Of a DNA stretch of 64,000 nucleotides, positions 45,771 through 63,902 are shown piece by piece. Below the pieces are notes generated by a model. That model was not told where the DNA came from. It searched no databases and saw only the letters and a list, made by a program, of their open reading frames with translations. Source of the DNA: an uncultured Sulfolobales archaeon (GTDB lineage Archaea; Thermoproteota; Thermoprotei_A; Sulfolobales; Acidilobaceae); assembly GCA_937921695.1 (NCBI GenBank), contig CAKZTZ010000001.1, forward strand, positions 95,932 through 159,931. Reading direction: 5' to 3'. Made by a program: the position numbers and the translations under genes. Numbering within the stretch: the first letter of the stretch is position 1; every line of letters begins with the position of its first letter.

Positions 45771-46760
45771 TCATTTCTCCTCTTTTTGTTCTAGGATTTT
45801 CTTTAGTAATGCCATTCTTAGTGGTATTCCTAGTTTTGCTTGTTTGTAGTATGCTGCGTGGGGTGTTTCGTCTATTTTTGGGTCTATTTCTTCTGTTTTT
45901 GGTAGGGGGTGTAGTATTTTGAGGTTTTTGTTTGCTTTTTTCTGTATTTGTTCTAGTGTTATTGTGTAGCTTCCTTTTATTTTCTCGTATTCTTCTGGGT
46001 CTGGTATTCTTTCTTTTTGTATTCTTGTTACGTATAGTATGTCTAGTTCTGGTAGTGTTTCTTCTAGGTTTTCTTCTTCTTTGTATGGTAGGTTTCTTTT
46101 TCTAGCTTCTTCTAGTATTTCTCTTCTTGCTTTTAGTTGTTGTGGTGCTATTAGGTATACTTTTTTGGGTTTGTAGTGTGTTAGTGCTAGTATGAAGCTT
46201 GATGCTGCCCTCCCATATTTTAGGTCTCCTAGGACTCCTATTGTTAGCCCGTCTACCCCTCCTTTGAGTTTTATTATTGTGTATATGTCTAGCATTGCTT
46301 GTGTTGGGTGGTGTTGTTTCCCGTCTCCAGCGTTTATAACGGGGTTTTCAGCTATGTCTGCTGCTAGTTTTGCAGCCCCATCATACTTGTGCCTTACTAC
46401 TATTGCGTCAGCGTAAGAGTCTAGCATTATTATGGTGTCTTTGAAGCTCTCCCCTTTAGCTATGCTTATGGCTTCCTCGCTTGTGAACCCTATTGTCTCG
46501 CCTCCCAGCCTTTTCATTGCTGATTCGAAGCTCATCCTAGTCCTAGTTGAGGGTTCGAAGAACGCTAGTGCTAGTATTTTACCTTCTAGGGGTTTGCCTT
46601 TAACACCTTTAACCATGATCTCGTCAGCCTCCTCGAAAAGCTCTTCTAGCTCCCCCCTGGTGAAGTCTAGTATTGATATTACATCCCTGCCTTTGAAGCC
46701 CGACACGTGGAACCACTTTAAATATTTAAATACCTGAGCCTTTAAGGGTTTAAGCTTCAA
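45771..46760 (-). CDS. pyrB: Aspartate carbamoyltransferase catalytic chain
   Basis: [41 protein letters not shown]. Confidence 0.97.
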
Positions 46761-46775: not shown

Positions 46776-48161
46776 GTGGGGGTTGTCTTGGGGAGGGGCA
46801 GGTATTATATTGAGACTTACGGCTGCTCCCTCGCAGAGTTTGACAGTTCAATGATGGAGGCTAGGCTCTCGGAGGCTGGCTATGTTAGAGTTGGGAGTGT
46901 TGAAGAGGCTGAATATGTTTTAATAAATACTTGCGCTGTGAGGCTTGACACAGAGCAGAGGATTAGCGAGAGGCTAATAGAGTTGAAGTCTAAATATCCT
47001 AGTAGGAGGTTTATAGTTGCAGGGTGCCTAGTTAAAGCTAGGCCTGGACTAGTTTCAAAACTAGCCCCCGAGGCTAGCCTCCTATCTCCGCAGAACGTTC
47101 ACAGAGTTGTAGAGGCTTTCGAAGCCCTCGAGAGGGGTTTGAGGCTCAAAGCTCTAGAAGGCTCTAGGGATACCAGCTCCCTCCCCACCCCTAGGCCTTC
47201 AGGTGTAACCGCTACTATAATGGTTCAGGAGGGGTGTCTTGGGGATTGTAGTTTCTGCATAACTAAGATCGCTAGGAGGAATGTTAAGAGCTACCCTCCA
47301 AGGCTCATAGTTGAAGCTGTAGGCAAGCTAGTCTCAATGGGTGTTGTGGAGGTGAGGCTTACAGGCCTCGACACTGCAGCTTACGGCGTAGACCTTCCCG
47401 GGAGGCCTACGCTCGCAGACCTCTTAAACACTATACTGGATAAAGTTGAGGGGGATTACATGGTTAGAGTCGGGATGATGACCCCGGAGTTAGCCTTGGA
47501 AATACTAGACGACCTTATTGAATCCTACAGGGACCCCAGGGTTTACAAGTATTTCCACATACCAGTCCAGAGCGGTGACGACGAAGTATTAAGGGTAATG
47601 AACAGGAAATACACTGTAAACGAATACAAGAAAATACATTATAAAATAAAAACATCATACCCGGAAGCTATGATAGCCACAGACATAATAGTAGGCCACC
47701 CTGGAGAAGATGAAGAAGCATTCCAAAACACGGTAAAACTAGTAGAGGAGCTCAAATTCGAGAAAATCCACCTAGCACAATATAGCATAAGACCGCACAC
47801 AAAAGCAGCAGCAATGCCGCAAATACCGGACTGGGTTAAAAAAGAAAGAAGCAAGAAACTAGGCAAAATAGTGGAAAAAATAGGGTACGAGATAATGTCA
47901 AAATATAAAGGTAAAACACTAGAAGTCATAGTAACGGAAGAAGGATTCAAAAAAGGAAGCCTAACAGCGAGAACACACAACTACACCCCAGTAGTAATAG
48001 AACACGATGAAAAAATCCTAGGCTCAAAAGCCCTAGTAACCATAAAAGAAAACACATTCTTCGACCTAAGAGGAGAACTAGTAGAAATAATTAAACCACA
48101 TAGAACACTTAGAGAAGCAGCCCCGACGCCAAAAACCCTAATTGAATACTGGAGAGGGTAG
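46776..48161 (+). CDS. tRNA methylthiotransferase, MtaB/CDKAL1 type (radical SAM)
   Basis: YIETYGCSLAEFDSSMM; EGCLGDCSFCITKIARR. Confidence 0.94.
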   Translation: MGVVLGRGRYYIETYGCSLAEFDSSMMEARLSEAGYVRVGSVEEAEYVLINTCAVRLDTEQRISERLIELKSKYPSRRFIVAGCLVKARPGLVSKLAPEASLLSPQNVHRVVEAFEALERGLRLKALEGSRDTSSLPTPRPSGVTATIMVQEGCLGDCSFCITKIARRNVKSYPPRLIVEAVGKLVSMGVVEVRLTGLDTAAYGVDLPGRPTLADLLNTILDKVEGDYMVRVGMMTPELALEILDDLIESYRDPRVYKYFHIPVQSGDDEVLRVMNRKYTVNEYKKIHYKIKTSYPEAMIATDIIVGHPGEDEEAFQNTVKLVEELKFEKIHLAQYSIRPHTKAAAMPQIPDWVKKERSKKLGKIVEKIGYEIMSKYKGKTLEVIVTEEGFKKGSLTARTHNYTPVVIEHDEKILGSKALVTIKENTFFDLRGELVEIIKPHRTLREAAPTPKTLIEYWRG

Positions 48162-48175
48162 CAGAGTTTAGCCCG

Positions 48176-48322
48176 CTACTCCTCTTCCTCCTCCCATTCC
48201 TCCTCTTCTTCCTCCCAGAATTCTTCTTCCTCTTCCTCCTCCCATTCCTCCTCTTCTTCGTCAAACTCTTCTTCCCACTCTTCCTCTTCTTCCTCCTCCT
48301 CCCATCTCTTCTTTGCCGTCAT
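48176..48322 (-). CDS. 48-aa Glu/Trp-repeat acidic microprotein
   Basis: MTAKKRWEEEEEEEEWEEEFDEEEEEWEEEEEEEFWEEEEEEWEEEEE; GGAGGG SD; ATTTAAATA about 50 nt upstream. Confidence 0.7.
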   Translation of the reverse strand: MTAKKRWEEEEEEEEWEEEFDEEEEEWEEEEEEEFWEEEEEEWEEEEE

Positions 48323-48532
48323 TTAAGGTCCCTCCATCTTTTTCCATTTCTAAGCTCTGGGCTTCGGGGGTATTTAAATGTTTGTGTTTCTTCTCCTCCT
48401 CTAGGGGATTAGCTGGGGCTTGTGGAAGGTATATTTACGTGCTTCTGGTATACTCTACCTTCCAGCGTTTCAGGTTTCCTGGGGGGCCTTCTCGAGTTAC
48501 CAGAGTGTTTCCTTGTGTTGAAGGGTTTTTAG

Positions 48533-49453
48533 GTGTGGGCTTGCTATTGTTTGCTGGATTCGGGGTTGGGTTTGGAGTTTTACGTTTTCGAGCCTAGGTT
48601 TGTTGTTGCACTGTCTCTTGATGAGGTTAGGGGTTTAGCTGGGGCTTGCGGCTCTCTCGCTACTGTTAACCTGGGTCTTGGCAGGGTTAGGGTTGGGGTT
48701 GAGGGTGGGGTTTGCGGTTTCAATGTTGGGTCTAGGTTTTTCAGTGTTGAAGAGCTCCTAGAGGCTTCTAGGGGGTTGGATCCTAGGGGTATACTGGTTT
48801 ATGTTGAGGGTTTAGGGTTTGTTAGGGCTGAAATGTGGTGGGGGAGGTTTTATAAGCTTGTGAACGTTCCCGGGGGTGCTCCAACCCTTGAGATTGACGG
48901 GGTCCACATGCATAGGGTTGAAGATGTTACTCCTTGGGAGGATGCTATGTTTAAAGTTAGAGTTTTAAAAGTGAAGCCGGGCTCTAGGGTTCTAGATATA
49001 TGCACTGGACTCGGCTACACAGCTATAAACGCCCTCCACATGGGAGCCTCTGAAGTCCACACTATAGAGGCTGACGAGAACGTCTTATCAATAGCGGAGT
49101 TAAACCCCTGGAGCTCCGAACTCTCAAGCGAAAAGATTAAAATAATCCTCGGGGACGCCCTAGAAGTCATAGAGGAACTAGAGGAGGAGAGCTACACACA
49201 CATAATACACGACCCCCCAAGGCTCACAAAGTCAACAGGGGAACTCTACAGCCTAGAACTACACAGGAAACTCTACAAAATACTAAAACCGGGAGGAAAA
49301 CTATACCATTACACAGGAGAGCCGGGGAGAACAAGGGGGGCAAACGTGCCGGCAAAAATAGCCTCAAGGCTAAAACAAGCAGGATTCCAAGTTAAAGGCT
49401 ACAACCGGAGAACACAAGGGGTAATAGCGTTTAAACCAGGAAAACCCACATAG
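48533..49453 (+). CDS. Class I SAM-dependent methyltransferase
   Basis: VLDICTGLGYTAINALHMGASEVHTIEAD; THIIHDPPRL. Confidence 0.8.
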   Translation: MWACYCLLDSGLGLEFYVFEPRFVVALSLDEVRGLAGACGSLATVNLGLGRVRVGVEGGVCGFNVGSRFFSVEELLEASRGLDPRGILVYVEGLGFVRAEMWWGRFYKLVNVPGGAPTLEIDGVHMHRVEDVTPWEDAMFKVRVLKVKPGSRVLDICTGLGYTAINALHMGASEVHTIEADENVLSIAELNPWSSELSSEKIKIILGDALEVIEELEEESYTHIIHDPPRLTKSTGELYSLELHRKLYKILKPGGKLYHYTGEPGRTRGANVPAKIASRLKQAGFQVKGYNRRTQGVIAFKPGKPT

Positions 49454-62558: not shown

Positions 62559-63902
62559 TTGGTGATCTTTTTGGAGGCTCCTGTTATAAGGGTTACGCCT
62601 CCGGGGCCTAGGGCTAGGGCTGTTGTTGAGGGTGACTCTGAGCTTCTTATGCAGTCTTTTGTTCGATGGTATCCTCTTGTTATAAAACGTGGGTTTGGGA
62701 GTGTTGTTGAGGATGTTGATGGTAATGTTTATATTGACTTTAACTCTGGGATAGCGGTTTTGAATGTTGGGCATTCTCATCCTAGGGTTGTTGAGGCTAT
62801 TAAGGGGCAGGCTGGGCTTTTCACCCACTATTCTCTAACAGACTTCTACTATGAGCTTGCAGTTGACTATGCTAGGGAACTTCTCAGAATAACGCCTGTA
62901 GGCGATGCTAAAGTATTCTACACTAATAGTGGTGCTGAGAGTATTGAGGGGTCTATGAAGATAGCTAGGGGGTATTTTAAGGGTTCAAGGCCATACATTA
63001 TAGCTTTTATAGGGGCTTTCCACGGGAGGACTTATGGGGCTATGAGCCTCACAGCTAGCAAGCCTACTCATAGGAGGCACTTCCACCCCCTAGTGCCGGG
63101 GATAATACATGTTCCATACCCATACCCTTACAGGTGCCCCTTCAAAACAGGGAGCCCGGAAGAGTGTGGGGAGGCTACTCTAGCATATATAGAAGACTGG
63201 ATCCTAGGGAGGCTAGTGGACCCAGGGGAGGTTTCAGCAATATTCTTCGAGCCTATACAAGGTGAGGGAGGATACATAGTGCCCCCAGACAATTTCCTCC
63301 CAGGGCTCGAGAAAATAGCTAGGAAACACGGAATACTACTAGTAGCAGACGAGGTCCAGACAGGGTTCGGGAGGAGCGGGAAATGGTTCGCAGTACAACA
63401 TTGGAGTATAACCCCGGACTTAATGGCCCTAGCTAAGGCGATAGCCTCAGGCCTACCCCTAGGAGCAATAGTGGGGAGAAAAGAAGTAATGAGCCTACCC
63501 CCGGGAAGCCACGCTAATACTTTCGGGGGAAACCCCATAGCCCTAGCAGCAGCTAAAGCAACACTAGAAATACTAAAAGAAGGAGTAGTAGAGAGGGTAG
63601 ACAAACTAGGAAAAGAAGCCATAGAATACCTGGAAGAGAGGCTGAAAGAAACCCCAATAGTGGGAGAGGTCAGAGGCAAAGGGTTCATGATAGGAATAGA
63701 ACTAGTAAAAGACGGAAAATCTAAAGAGCCGGCTAGAGGAGAGCTAGTCAAAATCCTAAATGAAACATTCAAGAAAGGAGTCCTAGCTATAGGAGGGGGA
63801 ATATCTACGCTGAGAATAGCGCCACCACTAACAATAGAGGAGGAACTCCTATTCAAAGGACTAGACATAATAGTGGAAACAATAAAGGAAACTCCAAAAT
63901 AA
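62559..63902 (+). CDS. Class III aminotransferase (4-aminobutyrate/ornithine-type)
   Basis: FYTNSGAESIEGSMKIAR; VADEVQTGFGRSGKWFAV. Confidence 0.93.
   Translation: MVIFLEAPVIRVTPPGPRARAVVEGDSELLMQSFVRWYPLVIKRGFGSVVEDVDGNVYIDFNSGIAVLNVGHSHPRVVEAIKGQAGLFTHYSLTDFYYELAVDYARELLRITPVGDAKVFYTNSGAESIEGSMKIARGYFKGSRPYIIAFIGAFHGRTYGAMSLTASKPTHRRHFHPLVPGIIHVPYPYPYRCPFKTGSPEECGEATLAYIEDWILGRLVDPGEVSAIFFEPIQGEGGYIVPPDNFLPGLEKIARKHGILLVADEVQTGFGRSGKWFAVQHWSITPDLMALAKAIASGLPLGAIVGRKEVMSLPPGSHANTFGGNPIALAAAKATLEILKEGVVERVDKLGKEAIEYLEERLKETPIVGEVRGKGFMIGIELVKDGKSKEPARGELVKILNETFKKGVLAIGGGISTLRIAPPLTIEEELLFKGLDIIVETIKETPK

Follow-up and report, generated by a model that had tools for sequence, protein, structure and literature searches.

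A minus-strand open reading frame (ORF) at positions 48176 to 48322 of the window, the whole 64,000-nucleotide stretch of archaeal DNA analyzed here, is, judging from comparison of sequences, a real and conserved gene under strong purifying selection at the amino acid level. It encodes a 48-residue protein rich in glutamate and tryptophan (E/W), and this protein and its relatives appear to make up a previously undescribed archaeal family. The E/W gene is apparently linked ancestrally to the gene for ABCE1 (Rli1), the ATPase that splits post-termination ribosomes. This linkage to ABCE1 and to translation genes, the strongest new clue and one that a single window could not have revealed, suggests a role in ribosome recycling or termination rather than the nucleic acid mimicry, buffering of basic proteins, or chaperone activity that an initial sequence-only reading of the window had proposed.

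The window ORF and its surroundings

Retranslation of the ORF gave MTAKKRWEEEEEEEEWEEEFDEEEEEWEEEEEEEFWEEEEEEWEEEEE, followed by a stop codon. The coordinates of the sequence-only reading proved exact, and its length of 48 residues, five Trp, and two Phe was right; its figure of 37 Glu was too high, as 34 of the 48 residues are Glu, with one Asp in addition. The Trp residues are at positions 7, 16, 27, 36, and 43, the acidic run starts at residue 8, and the C terminus is WEEEEE. Because GAA and GAG are freely mixed among the Glu codons, the ORF is not a codon microsatellite, a point that had been correctly made before. A Shine-Dalgarno (SD) sequence, GGAGGG, lies on the minus strand at 48330 to 48335, with the ATG 7 nt downstream. 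A TATA-like box predicted from the sequence, ATTTAAATA, lies on the same strand at 48371 to 48379, approximately 49 nt 5′ of the ATG. The SD had been read correctly and the box had been placed one base off, at 48372 to 48380.

The E/W gene is convergent with a plus-strand gene at 46776 to 48161 encoding a MiaB/MtaB-like tRNA t6A37 methylthiotransferase (TIGR01578, 392 bits against a cut-off of 314.7; PF04055, UPF0004, and TRAM also matched), and the two stop codons are 14 nt apart. As this gene adjoins it, the E/W gene has no gene directly downstream on its own strand in the window. On the other side, a divergent plus-strand gene at 48533 to 49453 encodes a SAM-dependent methyltransferase or polyamine aminopropyltransferase-like protein, with general methyltransferase and spermine-synthase Pfam matches and with NCBIfam matches under the equivalog cut-offs. 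A methyltransferase of this type is a neighbor of the E/W gene in 16 loci. Separately, we observed an intragenic strand-skew gradient along the window genes, in which G+T at third codon positions drops from 5′ to 3′. The means by fifths over 43 ORFs were 0.57, 0.51, 0.49, 0.42, and 0.40, with extremes of 0.82 to 0.26 and 0.87 to 0.29; example genes are those at 48533 to 49453, 62562 to 63899, and 45774 to 46733.

Conservation and spread of the E/W family

A protein search of relatives with the window sequence returned only the self-match, which would wrongly suggest an orphan. Low-complexity handling masks the family, which was therefore traced with degenerate DNA patterns and by synteny. An E/W-rich minus-strand ORF with an open frame was found beside the t6A methylthiotransferase gene in all five other genomes of the same genus (G001 to G005), and likewise in two genomes from other genera of the window’s family; MVAKKKYEEEEEEEEEYWEEEEEELEEEGDEEEEYWEEEEEEFWEEEEEEEEEY and MITPIWEEEEEEFWEEEEEWEEEEDIDEEWEEEFEDEEEWEEEEEEFWEEEEE are examples of these syntenic homologs. 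The sequence-only reading had held that a missing syntenic ortholog or a broken frame would count against the gene. Neither was seen in the genus, and the orthologs, their intact frames, and the recurring promoter and SD sites back its view of the ORF as a genuine microprotein that had been missed.

The strict DNA pattern, (GAR)4-NNN-TGG-(GAR)4, encodes EEEE-x-W-EEEE, and the same pattern read backwards served as the control. Its sole match in the window’s own genome was the E/W gene. Across the order, it matched 122 of 216 genomes and 53 of 79 genera, compared with 3 genomes for the reversed control. A relaxed pattern, defined by two Trp, was present in 167 of the 216 genomes (101 of 120 good genomes) and in 68 of 79 genera, with a reversed control that was much lower, though not empty. 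Across the phylum, 105 of 400 genomes matched the strict pattern and the reversed control was almost empty. Among the matches listed, small E/W ORFs occurred in named genomes of Pyrodictium, Ignisphaera, Zestosphaera, Thermodiscus, and Thermofilum, and further taxa among them were Bathyarchaeota, Brockarchaeota, Methanomethylicota, and others.

Bacterial matches among those listed were mostly acidic patches within longer proteins and were largely left out, and viral contigs matched merely through stretches of larger or unrelated proteins. Three loci (L094, L109, and L115; Bacteroidia, Caldipriscus) encode bacterial proteins with long C-terminal DW/EW repeat tails. At a few loci only (L138, L169, and L173), a LysW-like zinc ribbon is fused to a long E/W tail; these fusion loci have one neighbor in common with E/W proteins of the MSKRKTPPK type. 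The L169-type sequence scored above the cut-off for PF21344 and below that for NF041070.

We take the window’s family to include Aeropyrum and Caldisphaera, and genus g10 is presumably Acidilobus-like. Acidilobus- and Caldisphaera-like genomes matched neither DNA pattern. Three loci from such genomes (L306, L307, and L308) have Glu-rich ORFs of approximately 55 to 58 codons in which Phe, Ser, or Gly replaces most Trp, in a neighborhood that is common to the three and different from other E/W sites. Homology of these ORFs to the E/W family is not certain. More generally, the case for homology across branches and across the phylum rests on composition, spacing, size, and position, as low complexity bars proof by alignment.

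Pfam and NCBIfam gave no match for the window protein or for the tested relatives without a zinc ribbon, and a PDB sequence search with a Sulfolobaceae member gave none either. We found no description of the E/W family in the openly licensed literature.

Protein features, selection, and expression signals

We counted as E/W proteins those of approximately 21 to 70 residues with Glu as at least half of the residues, at least two Trp, and an acidic run reaching the C terminus. The window protein falls within this definition and was recovered as locus L072. Family members range from 21 to 68 residues, with a composition of approximately 66% Glu and 12% Trp, and their gene is usually single copy. 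The C-terminal residue is Trp in 78 of 127 proteins and Trp, Phe, or Tyr in 94. Spacings of 2 to 4 between hydrophobic and aromatic residues are avoided, and spacings of 6, 7, and 13 are enriched. Because i+3 and i+4 are among the avoided spacings, the aromatics do not make up a conventional amphipathic helix. AlphaFold2 predicted a single helix over residues 3 to 47 of the window protein (pLDDT, 94.6), to which we give little weight because Glu-rich chains tend toward helix predictions.

In 41 close pairs, we counted 270 synonymous versus 92 nonsynonymous differences, for a crude pN/pS of 0.04, which is indicative only, as the pairs were of equal length with at least 85% protein identity and this choice lowers pN. 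The stronger fact for selection is that in several pairs the proteins are identical despite 5 to 11 synonymous changes in 23 codons. Family-wide, GAA and GAG occur with about the same frequency. An SD-like motif precedes 95 of 155 family members versus 15.8 expected from shuffles, and a full-score TATA box precedes 25 of 155 versus 3.1 expected. A similarly placed TATA-like box is present in most family f1 loci, e.g., ATATTTAAATACC at L071 and AATATATACC at L067 and L070.

Association with ABCE1

When the neighbors of E/W loci were clustered, the commonest was ABCE1. Only the RPB9, MiaB, and methyltransferase clusters were named by family search; the other names were assigned by reading the sequences. 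The usual gene order is eS17, Cgi121 (KEOPS), the E/W gene, in some cases an RPB9-like zinc ribbon gene, and ABCE1. In 61 of 157 loci, the E/W gene is codirectional with ABCE1 and lies directly 5′ of it (gap of 42 to 512 nt); in 15 it is near ABCE1 on the opposite strand, and in 5 it has another nearby position. These counts describe association and not binding, and with one gene block inherited in common, they overstate how many of the observations are independent. In 19 of the 157 loci the gene is convergent to MiaB, and in 2 it is beside the methyltransferase alone, which leaves 55 in which the context is different or the flank is too short. At seven loci (L131, L144, L150, L151, L161, L193, and L197), a short RPB9/TFS-like zinc ribbon gene (PF02150) separates the E/W gene from ABCE1 and in some cases is just a few nucleotides from the E/W stop codon. 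In the L084 group, the E/W gene is on the strand opposite the ABCE1 block.

We also performed a scan centered on ABCE1 in 30 further genomes from 25 other families, chosen independently of the DNA pattern. A hyperacidic ORF was found in 15 of the 30 loci, in every case upstream on the ABCE1 strand, and the reversed control gave 0. Trp was present in 14 of these 15 ORFs, which often end in EEEEW. In Sulfolobaceae, which we take family f11 to be, the E/W gene is a few tens of nucleotides 5′ of ABCE1 and the strict pattern mostly misses it. A predicted peptide of this kind is MVKVLVFEEDWEEEF...EEEEW. Among the Sulfolobaceae genomes scanned, L288 and L291 had no E/W gene at ABCE1.

The genomes sampled from families f15, f21, f22, f25, f31, f35, f38, f39, f41, f47, and f51 showed no E/W gene next to ABCE1, and thus ABCE1 cannot need the E/W gene there. 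Other genomes of f35 and f21 do match the DNA pattern. In the window’s family, all 30 ABCE1 loci scanned were without an E/W gene, which implies that the gene has moved there. The ABCE1 gene of the window genome, on a separate contig (G000:C20), is not flanked by an E/W ORF (L269). Most family f1 copies adjoin MiaB.

Proposed function and alternatives

Our leading proposal, which is tentative and drawn from gene context and analogy, is that the E/W protein may act in trans as an acidic-aromatic ligand, binding ABCE1 or the post-termination ribosome in the manner of the acidic Trp motif of eIF3j. The chain is poly-Glu with aromatics every 6 to 7 positions or so and often a C-terminal Trp. It would be a flexible or conditionally helical polyanion, with its Trp residues as anchors into a hydrophobic pocket with a basic rim, on either ABCE1 or the post-termination 30S subunit, and such anchoring would modulate the recruitment or release of ABCE1. 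This mode would be comparable to that of the eIF3j/HCR1 acidic Trp motif or of the hydrophobic tail of the stalk protein aP1.

The tail region of aP1/aL12 is acidic. In this small tail, a critical Phe fits into hydrophobic pockets of aEF1A, aEF2, aIF5B, and ABCE1 (PMC6791870). The aP1/aL12 sequence differs in being nonrepetitive and in being the tail of a ribosomal protein, not a separate microprotein. In eIF3j/HCR1, the likeness is a short translation binding motif with a Trp within an acidic run. Trp52 in the human protein or Trp37 in the yeast protein, with acidic residues after it (D38 and E40 to E43 in yeast), occupies a hydrophobic pocket of eIF3b, and the contact requires both Trp and acid (PMC2824034). 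HCR1 is a functional and physical partner of RLI1/ABCE1, and RLI1 overexpression suppresses an hcr1 deletion (PMC3836723). However, eIF3j is a larger eukaryotic protein, and the E/W protein approximates its acidic-Trp stretch alone, repeated. The window protein had no sequence or profile match to the eIF3j family in Pfam or NCBIfam, and the resemblance is one of motif type.

Some points speak against E/W proteins being ligands of ABCE1. The link to ABCE1 is broken in the window’s own family, the eIF3j Trp has been shown structurally to bind eIF3b, not ABCE1, and archaea have no eIF3. That E/W might be an ancient archaeal cofactor of ABCE1-driven recycling, perhaps a stripped-down counterpart of the eukaryotic eIF3j acidic module, is a bolder idea that we consider doubtful.

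We think it rather unlikely, though deserving of some weight, that the E/W protein is a general polyanionic chaperone or counter-ion for basic proteins (chromatin or ribosomal) with no specific partner, akin to prothymosin and Hero proteins. The Glu- and Trp-heavy composition, the loose constraint on length and sequence, and the retention of the gene through shifts in genomic position would all fit such a protein. However, a purely electrostatic buffer would need no spaced aromatics, the aromatic C terminus of so many members would be superfluous for a pure charge buffer, and a lasting linkage to ABCE1 would not be expected.

It is improbable that the ORF is a cis-acting leader in which the N-terminal Glu run destabilizes or pauses ribosomes and thereby controls ABCE1 downstream. 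MgtL, mgtQ, and other acidic leaders resemble it in being short ORFs with acidic residues near the start, upstream of another gene. D/E-rich N termini abort translation in bacteria and eukaryotes (PMC9718836), and acidic leader codons regulate mgtA and mgtB, with the ABC-F protein EttA relieving the pausing (PMC11282234, PMC8092293). A gene that such a leader could regulate, immediately downstream and in the same orientation, is present at the 61 loci 5′ of ABCE1, but not in the window. As the gene stands alone in the window’s family and is opposite the ABCE1 block in the L084 group, a role solely as a leader is unlikely. The E/W gene also differs from acidic leaders in being monocistronic or antisense to its neighbors in several lineages and in conserving its composition over the full length. 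Moreover, the gap to ABCE1 varies widely, an RPB9-like gene intervenes in some genomes, and neither conserved Trp spacing nor a C-terminal Trp would be necessary for a leader.

Very improbably, the E/W family could derive from, or work like, the substrate-bearing acidic C-terminal tail of LysW/ArgW, which likewise contains Trp, in an EDWGE motif. The rare zinc-ribbon fusions (PF21344, 30.4 bits against a cut-off of 27) link the two, and some archaeal forms have WEDWGEE, resembling the EDWGE motif, a term that occurs in PMC10433800. However, most E/W proteins have neither a zinc ribbon nor an EDWGE end, many end in Trp and not in an acceptor Glu, and no lysine or arginine biosynthesis genes were seen in the neighbor clusters looked at. 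The window protein itself has no N-terminal zinc ribbon match and no C-terminal EDWGE with an acceptor Glu.

Finally, chance or low-complexity DNA resembling an ORF, which the composition and the self-only protein match might suggest, is ruled out at the level of sequence evolution by third codon positions that vary freely while the protein is kept, the almost empty reversed controls (strict pattern; 0 in the ABCE1-centered scan), the genus-wide synteny, and the SD and TATA enrichment.

Significance

A conserved gene in most genomes of the order, including those of what look like model Sulfolobaceae, appears to have been overlooked: with its very small size and low complexity, it is liable to be passed over by gene callers and by masked searches. 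A simple DNA pattern can now be used to find such genes elsewhere, and the family indicates that a near-homopolymeric sequence can be strictly selected. If the E/W protein does act with ABCE1, as we tentatively propose, it would be a missing player in the ribosome recycling of archaea, a system that resembles our own more than any other does.
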